In this document: positions 26,890-42,523 of the stretch, piece by piece | Position numbering within the stretch: the first letter of the stretch is position 1 | Layout of the letters: each line of letters begins with the position of its first letter | Assembly: GCA_021795795.1 (NCBI GenBank) | Contig: JAJYPA010000012.1 | Coordinates: forward strand, 1-52,732 | Direction: 5' to 3' | From: Pseudomonadota bacterium | GTDB lineage: Bacteria; Pseudomonadota; Gammaproteobacteria; Halothiobacillales; Halothiobacillaceae | DNA length: 52,732 nucleotides | Translations under genes and position numbers: made by a program | Notes under the pieces: model-generated | Databases searched by the model: none | Told to the model about the DNA's origin: nothing | The model's input: the letters and a program-made list of their open reading frames with translations, nothing else

Positions 26890-27336
26890 TCAACGTTTTC
26901 TTCTCCATAGGACATGACCCAGCAGGATCAGGGGGAGCAGACCGCCGAACGCAGCATGCGCGGTGGCAATCCATGTGAGACTGTTTTCATGGCTGACGTA
27001 GAGCAGGAGCGGGGCCGTGATCGTGAGTATCCCAACGGTCAGCAGCAATCCGGTGCCGGAGATATGACGCTCTTGCCTCAGCCATCCGGCGCGTGCGTGC
27101 ACCGTCCAAACCGCACCGATCAACGCCAGCACCAGAAAACCACTGAATACATGGCTTGCGGTAAGCACGATGCGGGTCAAGCCGGAGGGCTTCCAGGGAA
27201 AGTCCCACCAATCCCATTGAAAGACCAGCAACAACGGCACCAGTGCCAGTCCGGTTGCGAGCACCAGGGCCAGGCCAGCCATCAGTAAGGGCGCAAACGG
27301 GGCCGGGTAGCCTTGTTGTTTGAATTTAGGCAGCAT
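26890..27336 (-). CDS. Four-helix membrane protein with paired histidines (b561/DUF4405-like)
   Basis: A 148-residue integral membrane protein with four predicted helices (about 14-36, 53-77, 94-112 and 122-142). Histidines sit in or beside helices: TASHVFSG, WTVHARAGW, YVSHENS, TAHAAFGG and LLGHVLW. This spacing recalls small b-type cytochromes that pass electrons through the inner membrane, but no family is certain. It is the last gene of the FMN-binding/ApbE operon, 3 bp after apbE, and is the likely membrane electron donor or acceptor of that module. Confidence 0.72.
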   Translation of the reverse strand: MLPKFKQQGYPAPFAPLLMAGLALVLATGLALVPLLLVFQWDWWDFPWKPSGLTRIVLTASHVFSGFLVLALIGAVWTVHARAGWLRQERHISGTGLLLTVGILTITAPLLLYVSHENSLTWIATAHAAFGGLLPLILLGHVLWRRKR

Positions 27337-27339
27337 GAC

Positions 27340-28179
27340 TCAGATATCGTCCAAAAGGATGGGTTGGCGCGGGGCGATCGGTTCGAGCAGCTGACCGCCG
27401 AGCCGCCGGATAACTTCGGGCGCCTCGTCGTTTGCGGTGGCAGCGGCGACTTTGGTCAACGCATCCGCCAGCCAGGCATATCGGGCGATCACAGTCCATT
27501 GCCCGTAGCGAACGGGCTCGCTTCCCGCGATCAATTGAGCGGGAAAGTCCTGTGCGTTTCGGCCCGCTGCTGAAGTGGCGCAGGCACCGTTCGTCAGTTG
27601 ACCCAAGGCGATGCAACCGGCGTTCGAGTCAAGTCGAATCACCCGGGGTGTGCCGAAGCAGCGCCAGTCGCCGCCGGCATTGACAACGGCATCCGTCACG
27701 CCACAGGCTCTCAAGCGAGCAATGGCGCGGTCAACCGCCCAGCCCTTGGCAATGCCATCGAGCGTAATCAGCACGGGGCGAAGGCGTTGCAGGCGCGTGC
27801 CCTCAAGCCGGATGTCGTCGGCGTGGCCCGTTGGTATGAACGGTGTCGCCGGATCAGGGAGTCGTCCGCGCGCAACCAGTTCACCGCCTACGGTGGGATT
27901 GAATCGATGCGCGCTGGTTTGCGCCAATCGCAACGCCAGACGCAGCACGTGGGCAGTCCAGGGATGAATCTCAATCGCACCGTGACTGCGGTTGATTCGA
28001 CCGATATCACTCTCAGGCCGATGAAAACTCATCAATTGTTCCACGTGCTCGATGTCGGCGAACGCCCGATCAATGGCCGCTGTGAGCTGATCCGGTGGTC
28101 GGCCCGCTGCCGAAATCTCGACAAAGGTACCCAGAGCCGGGCGCATGCGTTGAATCGGTGGTGTGCCGCTCGGACTCAT
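27340..28179 (-). CDS. apbE: FAD:protein FMN transferase
   Basis: A 279-residue ApbE, which attaches FMN covalently to threonine in target proteins using FAD. Recognised segments are RPALGTFVEISA, MSFHRPESDIGRINR, FNPTVGGELV, LDGIAKGWAVDRAIARL, NAGGDWRCFG and ADALTKVAAATA. The ATG overlaps the stop of the FMN-binding gene (ATGA). Unlike most ApbE proteins it shows neither a signal peptide nor a lipobox: the N-terminus is MSPSGTPPIQRM. Confidence 0.92.
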   Translation of the reverse strand: MSPSGTPPIQRMRPALGTFVEISAAGRPPDQLTAAIDRAFADIEHVEQLMSFHRPESDIGRINRSHGAIEIHPWTAHVLRLALRLAQTSAHRFNPTVGGELVARGRLPDPATPFIPTGHADDIRLEGTRLQRLRPVLITLDGIAKGWAVDRAIARLRACGVTDAVVNAGGDWRCFGTPRVIRLDSNAGCIALGQLTNGACATSAAGRNAQDFPAQLIAGSEPVRYGQWTVIARYAWLADALTKVAAATANDEAPEVIRRLGGQLLEPIAPRQPILLDDI

Positions 28180-28730
28180 TTTGGCTTCGATCTCGAATCA
28201 GGTGTGGTCAGCGCCACTTGTTGCAACGCCAACAGACGCTTGACCCCATTGGTGACATTGCGGCAGGAGAGCGTCGCGCCGCTGATGTTGCGAATATCCT
28301 CGCCGAGTTTGAAGCCACTTTGGGTGGTCCGCCCCAGAAACTGACCGCGCCAGTCGGCCTGCCGGACTTGATCACCGTAGGTTTCGAGGTATTCCATGAT
28401 CTCGATACCCAAAACACGGCCTTCCGGCGAGAGCGCGACGGCATAACGAATGAATTCGTGTTTACCGATCACACGATCCTCGATATACCAACCCTGAAAT
28501 GCGCCATCTTTTTCTGCGCGCCAGACGGGTTGCTCCTTCCAGCGCTGGCGCACATCGCTCAGTTCTTCTATCTGCGATCGTTGATCGCTGCTGAGTTTGA
28601 CCGGTGTTGCAAGAAATTGAGTTGCCGAAGGGAACAATGCCTTTTGTGCCTGTTCGGTTGTGAAGTATTGATTGGCTTGAACCGCGGACACCATGAACGG
28701 CGCCAGCGCGATGATGGGGGCATAGCGCAT
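28176..28730 (-). CDS. Exported FMN-binding domain protein, probable ApbE substrate
   Basis: A 184-residue exported protein; the signal peptide ends near SAVQANQ. The C-terminal half is an FMN-binding domain like those of RnfG, NqrC and NosR, with the flavinylation motif ISGATLSC, whose threonine would carry FMN. Other segments are GWYIEDRVIGKHEFIRYAV and GIEIMEYLETYG. GAGG precedes the ATG, and apbE follows with a 4-bp overlap, strongly implying an enzyme-substrate pair. It has no transmembrane anchor beyond the signal, so it is likely a soluble periplasmic flavoprotein. Confidence 0.9.
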   Translation of the reverse strand: MRYAPIIALAPFMVSAVQANQYFTTEQAQKALFPSATQFLATPVKLSSDQRSQIEELSDVRQRWKEQPVWRAEKDGAFQGWYIEDRVIGKHEFIRYAVALSPEGRVLGIEIMEYLETYGDQVRQADWRGQFLGRTTQSGFKLGEDIRNISGATLSCRNVTNGVKRLLALQQVALTTPDSRSKPK

Positions 28731-28738
28731 GGTAAACC

Positions 28739-29662
28739 TCAGAAGTTGTAACCCACTTTCAGGCGGAGTTCGTTACGTTCGTGATCGGCTAAGTGCAAAT
28801 CGGTCCGGTTCTGCGCACCAGATTCCTCACTGGAACCGGCGAACTGATGCGCCCATGTAAGGGTGGCCCACCAGCGCTTCCCGCCGTAATGAATGCTGGG
28901 TCCGGCGAAGAAATCCCAGTGATCGAACTCCCAGCCGCCACTGCCCGGTTCTGCCGGATCGGCTGCGGCATTGAGCATTTCCATATCCACCCAACCCTCC
29001 GCACCGATGTACCAGTTCGGTATAAAACGATAGGAGATACCTGAGCGCAGCCTGGGCGCGATGGCACTCTCAACGGCGCCGGATTCATTATCCTTCGCTG
29101 TTTCGGCCTCGAATTCGATATTGGTCAGCCACTGAAACTGACCATCGAGATAGGGTTTTTGGAAAATGACCTTGGTCTCCAGCTCCCAGCCACGAATGGC
29201 CGCACCGGTGATGCTGTCGACCGTGTCATAGGTGAGCTCACCATATAAGGCCACACCAAGATCATCCTTGTAGGGCGACAAGATATTCTTTTTGAGCTCG
29301 ACGGAGAAACCGCTGAATTTGGTTTGGCTTAATGAACCATCTATTTCTCCAGGTACCGGACTGCCACTGTATTTATGCCGATAGCCATTGAGATAAATTG
29401 AACCGGACAGGGTGTCCGTGAGGCCACGTTCGTACTCCAGCCGGAAATAGTCGGCGGTATAGCTGCCTTGGCGTTTGCCTGAGTGAATCGTGTTCCACAG
29501 ATACAGTTCGTTGCCTCCCTTTGGTGTCGTCTCGGCCCCGGTGGTGTACCCCAGAAGGTTCTCATCCGCCTCGGCGCGATCAATGAAAGGTGGTGCGAAA
29601 GCACCCGTTAGGCTCAGAGCAACCACACCGGCCAGTGAAGAACGTTTTGCTGCAAAAATCAT
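28739..29662 (-). CDS. Outer-membrane beta-barrel-like protein (DUF6662 type)
   Basis: A 307-residue exported protein; signal peptide to about DRAEADE. The mature chain is rich in alternating aromatic and polar strands (GGNELYLWNTIHSG, YFRLEYERGLTDTLSGSIYL, GISYRFIPNWYIGAEGWVD, GKRWWATLTWAHQFAG) and ends in KVGYNF, with the terminal phenylalanine of outer-membrane barrels. It resembles the DUF6662 family by recall. The ATG at 29662 has GAGGAAAC upstream. It is the first gene of the FMN/ApbE operon, 8 bp before the FMN-binding gene. Confidence 0.8.
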   Translation of the reverse strand: MIFAAKRSSLAGVVALSLTGAFAPPFIDRAEADENLLGYTTGAETTPKGGNELYLWNTIHSGKRQGSYTADYFRLEYERGLTDTLSGSIYLNGYRHKYSGSPVPGEIDGSLSQTKFSGFSVELKKNILSPYKDDLGVALYGELTYDTVDSITGAAIRGWELETKVIFQKPYLDGQFQWLTNIEFEAETAKDNESGAVESAIAPRLRSGISYRFIPNWYIGAEGWVDMEMLNAAADPAEPGSGGWEFDHWDFFAGPSIHYGGKRWWATLTWAHQFAGSSEESGAQNRTDLHLADHERNELRLKVGYNF

Positions 29663-29707
29663 ATCAGTTTCCTCAATAGGTATCCAAAGGCAAACGCGAA
29701 CCGTTCG

Positions 29708-29736
29708 CATTATGATTAGATTTGAATTGAAGTCAA
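29708..29736 (-). promoter_or_regulatory. Strong sigma70-like promoter with overlapping Fur-box-like sequence
   Basis: On the minus strand TTGACT (29731-29736), a 16-base spacer and CATAAT (29709-29714) lie about 50 bases before the DUF6662 start; each hexamer is five of six to consensus. A sequence with about 10-11 of 19 matches to the Fur consensus overlaps the spacer and -10 (29708-29726). The promoter is well supported; the Fur site is tentative. Confidence 0.6.
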
Positions 29737-33270: not shown

Positions 33271-33333
33271 AGCAACCACAGTCCGAATTCTTTGGCATGT
33301 TGCCAAGCAAAAACCCACGAGAGGATTAAGATC

Positions 33334-33975
33334 ATGGCTAACGTAATCAATACCAACATTCTTTCACTGCAATCCCAAAATACCCTGCGAATGACCGAGA
33401 ATACAATGCAGACTGCAATGCTGCGCTTGTCCACCGGTTTGCGTATCAATAGCGCCAAGGACGATGCGGCTGGCTTGGGGATTGCTGATCGGATGACAAC
33501 CCAGATCAACGGTTCAACCGTGGCCGCGCGCAACGCGCAGGATGGTGTTTCCATGGCGCAGACCGCCGAAGGCGCAATGGGTGCGTTGACTTCTACCCTG
33601 CAACGGATGCGTGATCTGGCTGTTCAATCTGCCAATGCCACCAATAGCACGACTGGCCAGCAAAACCTGCAGACTGAATTTGGTCAACTGCAAAGTGAAT
33701 TAAGCCGCATCATCAGTAACACCCAATTTAACGGCAAGAACGTGTTGGCTGGTGGCTTGAGCGGCTCTGCCAATGCCAGATATCAGGTCGGTGCTTGCTA
33801 CCTGTCCCGTTGCTTCGTTGCAGCAACCGGGTCGGGGCGACAGATTTTATTTCAAGTTCTGGCTGACCCAGTCGAGAACCTGATCGGCGGGGACGCTCTT
33901 ATTCTCACTTTCCCACCGCAGGCGGGTCTCAAATTCACCCGCCGCAAGGCCGCGCTCGCTCACCACGATGCGTAA
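33334..33975 (+). pseudogene. fliC: Flagellin 5' fragment fused to sequence antisense to proS
   Basis: The first 154 codons are a good flagellin N-terminus: MANVINTNILSLQSQNTL, LSTGLRINSAKDDAAGLGIA and IISNTQFNGKNVLAGG, i.e. domains D0 and D1 with a GAGAGG ribosome-binding site and a perfect FliA promoter. Homology stops near 33796. The frame then runs on for 59 codons, the last 43 antisense to the 3' end of proS. The central and C-terminal D0/D1 halves needed for filament assembly are missing, so it is a relic. No other flagellar gene is in the window. Confidence 0.88.
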
Positions 33976-41152: not shown

Positions 41153-42523
41153 TCAGGATGATTGCTTGTCCGGTACAAACTTCAGTACATTGCCGTTAAT
41201 GCAGTAGCGCTTTCCGGTTGGTGGCGGTCCATCGTCGAACACGTGTCCGAGATGAATGCCCGAACTGGTACTGATCACTTCGACGCGATGCATGCCGTAG
41301 GCATTGTCTTCCTTGAGTGTGATGGCGCCGGGTACCGGGTTGAAAAAACTCGGCCAGCCGGTGCCACTGTCAAATTTGGCATCGCTGCGGAATAACGGGG
41401 CACCGGTGATCGGGTCCACGAACATGCCGGGACGTTTTTCATCCAGATGCGAGCCTGTGAACGGACGTTCCGTACCATCTTCAAAGGCGATTCTGCGCTG
41501 CTCTGGCGTGAGCAGCTGGTAGCCCAGCCACTTCCAGAATCGATCCTTTTCACCGTTATAGCCGGTGTAGCGGGATATTTCCTTGCCTTGCTCGAACAGC
41601 ACGATCGTCGGGGTGGCGAAAAGTGCCTTGCTCAATGTCCAGCCCTCGGGCGGGTGTGGGTTGAGTGTGGTGATGATTGGTACTTCGGAGCGCCAGCCAT
41701 TGAGCACATCTGCCTTGAATTGTTTGCAGAATGGGCAATCTTCCGCCTCGAATACGATCAGTTGCCGAGTGAAATTCAGTGTATTGGCCGAAAGCTGAGG
41801 CGGTTGTGGATGCGTTGCCTGTCCTGATTGGGTGCCCCGAAAAACCCCATCCTTGGGATTTTTCGAGGTGCCCAATTGTGGGTAGGCCACACTGGTGCCG
41901 CCCAGTCCACAATAACCATTGGGATTCTTTTTCAGATAGTTCTGATGGTATTCCTCGGCGGTATTGTAGTTGCGTAGTGGGGCGATCTCGGTGGTTATAG
42001 ATGGATGGCCCGCCTTGGTGAGCGCGGCTTGATACGCATCACGCGTGGACAGTGCCACCGCCTTCTGATCTTCCGTCGTGTAATAAATCGCGCTGCGGTA
42101 GTTGCTGCCGACATCATTGCCTTGACGGTCGCCTTGGGTCGGGTCGTGATTCTCCCAAAATTTGATGAGTATAGTTTTAAGGTCCACCCGTGCCGGATCG
42201 AAACTGACCTTTACGACTTCGGCGTGATTACGTGCCGTATTGGCCCCTCGTCGGCTTGCACGTTCCTCATTGAGTATGTCGTTGTAGCCGACTTTTGGTG
42301 CATCGCCGCCGGCATAACCCACCTCAACATGGACGACACCGGGAATTTCAGACATCCGCTTTTCGGCGCCCCAGAAACACCCCATCCCGAGTACGATGGA
42401 TTCCGTGGTGGCCCTGGTTGCCGTGGTATCCGCAGTGGACGCCGCGAAGGGGATACCCAGCATCAATATCCCCAACAACACCAGTAACTTCTGTTTGATC
42501 TTAATCAGAGGGTTCTTAAACAT
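41153..42523 (-). CDS. msrAB: Periplasmic MsrA-thioredoxin-MsrB fusion
   Basis: A 456-residue exported enzyme repairing methionine sulfoxide. After a signal peptide (about 1-30) come MsrA (catalytic C49 in VLGMGCFWGAE, resolving C205 in NPNGYCGLGG), a thioredoxin-like domain (C263 and C266 in EDCPFCKQF, cis-Pro in LFATPTIVLF) and MsrB (C441 in KRYCINGN). The two zinc CxxC pairs of MsrB are absent (ITGAPLF, ISTSSGIHLGHVF). Neisserial PilB has the thioredoxin part first; here it sits between the reductases. GAGGAAACG precedes the ATG. It follows the ECF sigma/anti-sigma pair by 128 bp. Confidence 0.93.
   Translation of the reverse strand: MFKNPLIKIKQKLLVLLGILMLGIPFAASTADTTATRATTESIVLGMGCFWGAEKRMSEIPGVVHVEVGYAGGDAPKVGYNDILNEERASRRGANTARNHAEVVKVSFDPARVDLKTILIKFWENHDPTQGDRQGNDVGSNYRSAIYYTTEDQKAVALSTRDAYQAALTKAGHPSITTEIAPLRNYNTAEEYHQNYLKKNPNGYCGLGGTSVAYPQLGTSKNPKDGVFRGTQSGQATHPQPPQLSANTLNFTRQLIVFEAEDCPFCKQFKADVLNGWRSEVPIITTLNPHPPEGWTLSKALFATPTIVLFEQGKEISRYTGYNGEKDRFWKWLGYQLLTPEQRRIAFEDGTERPFTGSHLDEKRPGMFVDPITGAPLFRSDAKFDSGTGWPSFFNPVPGAITLKEDNAYGMHRVEVISTSSGIHLGHVFDDGPPPTGKRYCINGNVLKFVPDKQSS

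Follow-up and report, generated by a model that had tools for sequence, protein, structure and literature searches.

Results

The window analysed here is a stretch of 52,732 nucleotides from a member of the Halothiobacillaceae (contig JAJYPA010000012.1, assembly GCA_021795795.1), and the present work concerns an operon in it that encodes an outer-membrane barrel of the DUF6662 family, a putatively exported protein that binds flavin mononucleotide (FMN), the FMN transferase ApbE and a small four-helix membrane protein. The nearest named relatives of the FMN-binding protein come from metagenome-assembled genomes (MAGs) of Halothiobacillus and are 93% identical to it, in keeping with a Halothiobacillus-like bacterium. 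An earlier note on this DNA had described a tight four-gene operon, and this description holds: all four genes lie on the minus strand between 26890 and 29662, are transcribed in the order barrel, FMN protein, ApbE and four-helix protein, and are separated by 8, -4 and 3 bases. The longest open reading frame (ORF) of the DUF6662 gene spans 28739-29710, and its likely start at 29662, which has a GAGGAA ribosome site, gives 307 residues, the same length as at L002 (L labels denote the loci compared and G labels the genomes scanned). The four-helix protein has 148 residues. The features are the following.

28739..29662, minus strand: DUF6662 barrel (PF20367), a predicted 12-strand outer-membrane beta-barrel channel with a signal peptide (by eye) and C-terminal GYNF
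28176..28730, minus strand: FMN-binding protein with an RnfG-like FMN_bind domain (PF04205, E 9.7e-10), predicted to be exported from a Sec-like N-terminus (by eye)
28272..28283, minus strand: codons of the SGAT flavinylation motif (residues 150-153), read from the translation
27340..28179, minus strand: ApbE, FAD:protein FMN transferase, with no signal peptide visible (PF02424, E 2e-32; domain from about residue 10)
27451..27465, minus strand: DALTK codons in ApbE
26890..27336, minus strand: four-helix membrane protein, predicted two-haem b-type cytochrome with four invariant histidines (62, 80, 127 and 141)
29696..29714, minus strand: degenerate counterpart (11/19) of a Fur-like box, matching by eye the position of the boxes in relatives (L001, L002, L004, L090, L093)

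Conservation of the gene set

The co-occurrence survey proposed in the earlier note was carried out, and the four families do occur together. In three genome surveys the complete set was found in this order at 24 of the 25 distinct DUF6662 genes examined, a count that leaves out one further match at a contig end (G682). DUF6662 itself was present in 11/398 genomes of the phylum, 13/147 genomes of one family and 3/150 genomes of one order. The single miss is an orphan barrel (L049, 7895-8809, minus strand) with the rest of the module absent, in a genome (G641) that also holds a complete copy (L050). A search of close relatives with the FMN protein gave 12 loci, all with the barrel, the FMN protein, ApbE and the four-helix protein in order, the four-helix gene of L011 being detected by profile only. 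A survey of the class with an alignment of FMN proteins matched 8/274 genomes. True members account for seven of these, each having ApbE and the four-helix gene and four having DUF6662 as well; the eighth (L042) is a distant FMN_bind protein at a locus where the module is absent.

Altogether, 57 loci of the FMN family were compared, including the window but not L042, and 24 of them had been found through DUF6662. ApbE is encoded at all 57, the four-helix protein at 56 and DUF6662 at 50. Four loci on the same contigs as others were dropped from this table (L084, L086, L091 and L092, duplicating L003, L002, L004 and L005, respectively), and three survey matches (G682, G988, G1026) stand outside the locus set. 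The four-helix gene is missing at L083 only, where the contig ends soon after ApbE. DUF6662 is missing at L037, L038, L039 and L075-L078. L077 has, in place of DUF6662, a Porin_O_P match in the ORF that precedes the FMN gene, and the corresponding ORFs of L039 and L078 resemble it at the N-terminus; L040 has both kinds of barrel. At L081 the whole set is decayed, its ORFs being in pieces.

The four-gene set is real and far beyond chance. It is also patchy, since the FMN protein was found in 13/27 genomes of the order of the window's nearest genome, and it occurs in several families of the phylum as well as in one MAG that carries the label Spartobacteria. In the latter, a group outside the surveyed phylum, the set is complete (L012), and transfer or mis-binning is possible.

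The FMN-binding carrier

The FMN protein scores 39.4 bits against FMN_bind (cut-off 22), and its nearest solved relative is RnfG (PDB chains, E 6e-5). The G-A-T of its motif is invariant in 19 aligned proteins, and [ST]GA[ST] was read in 52 of the 56 FMN proteins listed, the others having GGAT (3) or TGVT (1, in the fragmentary gene of L082). The domain above cut-off, the SGAT motif and the signal-like N-terminus seen by eye are the features of a flavinylated-type FMN_bind protein, in which FMN would be covalently attached to the threonine. A twin-arginine translocation (Tat)-type N-terminus, with a motif such as RRRFLK, is present in 8/56 of these proteins (L047, L063-L068 and L070, by flag and by eye). 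Tat flags at L075, L077 and L078 were discounted as false because the ORF start lies too far upstream. The remaining proteins with a readable start, that of the window included, appear by eye to be of Sec type. A remnant of Rnf or Nqr was considered and rejected: the score against rnfG (TIGR01947) is 34.8 bits, far under the cut-off of 102, and no rnf gene adjoins the operon by eye.

The four-helix protein and the barrel

The paired histidines pointed out in the earlier note are kept throughout the family, as all four are invariant in 54/54 sequences. The predicted structure has four long membrane helices and is cytochrome-b-like; in it His 62 and 80 lie on helix 2 and His 127 and 141 on helix 4, an arrangement of four axial histidines on two helices as in two-haem b-type cytochromes. 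The protein is therefore predicted to be such a cytochrome and would bind haem. The window copy has no Pfam family over cut-off, and a Foldseek search with its model returned nothing at E<=0.001. Against DUF4405 (PF14358) the best family member reached 20.6 bits, under the cut-off of 26.7, and the window copy gave no match at E up to 10. For cytochrome b561 (PF01292) the best member scored 30.0 bits, the cut-off being 30.1; E was <0.1 in 7/10 members scanned, and the window copy had no match.

The barrel is a clear DUF6662 protein (172.2 bits, cut-off 27), and it models as a 12-strand channel with a fold like that of COG4313. [ST]GA[ST] occurs in 2/51 barrels only, in differing sequence contexts, and thus there is no conserved flavinylation motif; the haem motif CxxCH occurs in 0/51. 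No paper naming DUF6662 was found in the literature searched, whose supplementary listings were outside the search and may hold an earlier record of this cluster.

ApbE

The window ApbE scores 113.2 bits against PF02424 (cut-off 25.6), contains the AKG and DxL regions and aligns with solved FMN transferases. KG and D-x-L-T-K are invariant in the 24 ApbEs aligned (L007 reads DGLTK), and three solved ApbE chains (1vrm, 6nxi, 6nxj) are without the lysine at this position. Neither a signal peptide nor a lipobox was seen by eye in the 24 aligned proteins, and in 19 of them the domain begins at most 15 residues from the start used. At L007, L009, L011, L041 and L077 the ORF as taken starts further upstream; that of L009 has a short hydrophobic stretch before the domain, within the overlap with the FMN gene. 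The ApbE of the module is thus apparently cytoplasmic, although its partner is predicted to be exported, an unexpected point that the earlier note had missed.

In 5/12 genomes scanned (G641, G412, G263, G638 and G615), the ApbE and the FMN_bind protein of the module are the sole ones found, and therefore this ApbE should serve the carrier, provided that the latter is flavinylated at all; the argument weighs FMN_bind substrates only, other kinds of ApbE substrate being outside the scan. In each of the four Halothiobacillus genomes scanned there is another ApbE, whose N-terminus is twin-arginine-like and lipoprotein-like, along with an additional FMN_bind protein of larger size. For comparison with DUF2271-linked ApbEs there was one usable locus (L101), whose ORF has no signal peptide by eye, which is too little to conclude from.

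Fur-like boxes and neighbouring genes

Upstream regions were scored against the 19-base Fur consensus, with a threshold of at least 14/19. Boxes at this level precede the operon in 18/47 cases, compared with 4/351 for other genes of the same loci, promoter-bearing or not (Fisher p 3.7e-15), and with 2/153 for those controls with an upstream gap of at least 60 bases (p 3.4e-11); both p-values overstate independence, as the loci are related. This comparison omits L042, L049, L081, L082, L087 and every locus that lacks DUF6662. Among 18 lineages, 8 have a member with at least 14/19 and 10 have a median of at least 13. The possible Fur site that the earlier note saw in the window did not stand on its own merit, since the best site there is a degenerate 11/19 that 76% of shuffles equal or better (share 0.76); the boxes of the relatives are much better.

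Iron-uptake genes adjoin the module at some loci, and together with these boxes they uphold the link to iron that had been suggested from the window. At L036, two imelysins, DHOR and DUF1513 form one run upstream. ExbB, ExbD and TonB lie downstream at L009, and at L065 a Rieske protein, a TonB receptor and PepSY_TM, as scanned, with the same layout at L063-L068 by length and N-terminus. L077 has CCP_MauG upstream and a TonB receptor downstream on the other strand, at L085 TonB faces the module, and at L074 a P-type ATPase with a heavy-metal-binding domain precedes it. No iron-type neighbour was seen by eye at many loci, the window included. The TonB receptor is the commonest neighbour family among the 25 commonest shown, yet it makes up only 4/133 neighbours from 26 loci, with no background run; Rieske accounts for 3/133 and PepSY_TM for 2/133. 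From an initial 140 neighbours at 27 loci, six L038 genes and the 1380-residue CobN-type gene of L063 had been left out. This context is no test, and it is suggestive.

Directly upstream of the module at L063 (9152-16943, minus strand), in a genome of the window's class, is an Hmu-type run of HmuY, a TonB receptor barrel, a CobN-type chelatase, DUF2149 and an ExbB-like gene. According to one report, hmu is primarily a Bacteroidota system, and the CobN-type HmuS strips iron from haem in an NADH-dependent manner, the electron's path there being said to be unknown (PMC12583661).

At the Halothiobacillus-type loci (L001-L005, L090, L093), a phosphate-transport-like gene run precedes the operon (by eye). 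In the window an alpha-glucan-phosphorylase-like gene does, and the upstream neighbour thus differs. Two other genes of the window were noted. A flagellin ORF (33292-33975, plus strand) matches the N-terminal flagellin domain only (PF00669, residues 19-154), overlaps a gene on the opposite strand that is prolyl-tRNA-synthetase-like by eye, and looks truncated. A single ORF at 41153-42523 (minus strand) seems, from its translation by eye, to fuse MsrA-like, thioredoxin-like and MsrB-like parts.

Discussion

Our analysis favors, with a probability of about 0.55, the view that this operon encodes a compact periplasmic reductase that acts on metals by way of flavin and most likely serves iron supply, with a barrel that is a passive channel and an ApbE that loads FMN apparently before export. 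The module would be a variant form of flavinylated transmembrane electron transfer, most likely devoted to periplasmic ferric reduction. A pair of b haems might sit in the four-helix protein, one close to the periplasmic face of the inner membrane (His62/His127) and the other close to the cytoplasmic face (His80/His141). Electrons from quinol or from a cytoplasmic donor would pass through them to the covalent FMN of the exported carrier, whose flavin would reduce periplasmic ferric complexes and free Fe(II) for uptake. The DUF6662 barrel might let substrate or chelator in or out, rather than conduct electrons. The attachment of FMN by ApbE would come before export of the carrier and apparently take place in the cytoplasm. 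In many lineages the whole would be under Fur-type control. The sequences themselves show the gene set and its conservation, the four histidines, the SGAT motif, the boxes of the relatives and an ApbE on which no signal is visible; flavinylation, haem binding, the direction of electron flow and iron as the substrate are inferred.

Several known systems resemble this module in part. The PepSY-like flavinylation systems (ApbE, DUF2271, DUF4198) likewise combine an ApbE with an exported carrier that is flavinylated and with a small membrane protein; Fur control, with repression of the clusters, and TonB receptors are reported for some of them (PMC8238504). A Caulobacter cluster with apbE and DUF2271 also appears in another paper (PMC3751524). 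In contrast, the carrier here is an FMN_bind protein and not DUF2271, a barrel belongs to the set, and the membrane protein has four helices, four histidines and no PepSY match. Indeed, PF03929 and PF16357 matched none of the four window proteins, and PepSY_TM occurs only as an extra neighbour gene. The flavinylation-associated DUF4405 cytochromes are likewise small membrane proteins with four central histidines, encoded beside apbE, for which haem b binding is reported as shown (PMC11334425), but they have six helices instead of four, and the matches to their Pfam family are under cut-off. FoxB-type ferrisiderophore reductases are described as passing electrons through two b haems to the periplasm, where ferric complexes are reduced (PMC13038864), whereas here the reduction would fall to a separate flavoprotein and not to the membrane protein. 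The barrel shares the 12-strand fold of COG4313 channels such as Pput2725 (PMC4493636), but with 11% identity, and it is DUF6662 in Pfam. RnfG and NqrC have the same FMN_bind domain as the carrier, likewise bearing a flavinylation motif, but no further subunit of either complex was seen in the operon. Thus, the module would resemble both the PepSY/DUF2271 systems and the FoxB-type ferric reductases in its working, but the tests made place it in neither group. The earlier note was right to set it apart from Rnf, Nqr and NosR, as a conserved four-gene redox module of a separate kind. Its further remark that no characterised system with this set was known agrees with the literature search on DUF6662, but should be tempered by the near kin in print, namely the Fur-linked PepSY/DUF2271 systems and the DUF4405 cytochromes.

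The side of the membrane on which the flavin is attached deserves attention. A signal-less ApbE with an exported partner suggests flavinylation before export, the reverse of what is usual, namely export of the target first and flavinylation outside. According to a review, most ApbEs are apparently secreted, and a cytosolic ApbE of Klebsiella serves a soluble fumarate reductase (PMC12052999). Since Tat exports folded, cofactor-loaded protein, the Tat-type carriers fit FMN loading in the cytoplasm; with Sec-type carriers such loading leaves the export route unexplained. We therefore put forward tentatively, at a little short of even odds, a more specific proposal: that a cytoplasmic ApbE loads FMN before export, that the carrier passes through the membrane as a holo-flavoprotein, in some lineages by Tat, and that the module, with a minimal two-haem cytochrome of its own, represents a flavinylated metal reductase of a new, Fur-linked class.

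Other functions have to be weighed against ferric reduction. Di-haem peroxidase-type genes adjoin the module at two loci (DHOR at L036, CCP_MauG at L077) and a Rieske gene at L065, and the flavin carrier is itself iron-free, though the membrane protein would use haem. It is thus conceivable, as a real if minor possibility, that the module is a generic periplasmic electron supply for a peroxidase, a Rieske protein or another oxidoreductase, and that its link to iron is regulatory only: it would be induced by iron starvation and replace haem- or Fe-S-rich carriers. The TonB, TonB-receptor, imelysin and Hmu-type neighbours nevertheless point to uptake and not to substitution.

The sequence fixes no direction of electron flow, and a module running in reverse would oxidise a periplasmic substrate and deliver the electrons to quinone. 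The relatives of the window FMN protein come from Halothiobacillus and Thiomicrorhabdus, which oxidise sulfur. Such reverse flow is unlikely, however, as Fur-type control and uptake neighbours fit reduction better. A reductase for copper or another metal instead of iron is quite unlikely: the boxes ahead of the module are Fur-like and recurrent, and several lineages have iron-uptake neighbours, whereas the heavy-metal ATPase is found at one locus only. CrpH, a PepSY_TM protein, is the precedent, being proposed as a copper reductase (PMC13038864). Finally, the reading implied by the route of the earlier note, in which electrons cross the outer membrane through the barrel as an extracellular electron-transfer conduit, is very improbable and was rejected, for although the barrel gene heads the operon at 50/57 loci (24 of them found through the barrel), its fold is of channel type with no conserved flavin or CxxCH motif, and DUF6662 is absent at 7/57 loci, one of which has a Porin_O_P barrel instead.

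To conclude, our results point to a probable flavin-based periplasmic ferric reductase. Among the known flavinylation systems it would form an additional class, compact and mostly barrel-linked, and it offers roles that can be tested for DUF6662 and for a four-histidine membrane protein that has no name. The newest aspect of the module is the membrane side on which ApbE would act. A signal-less ApbE beside an exported, sometimes Tat-type substrate raises the neglected question of where flavin is attached, which is directly testable, and the five genomes in which this ApbE and this FMN_bind protein are the sole ones found offer clean test organisms.

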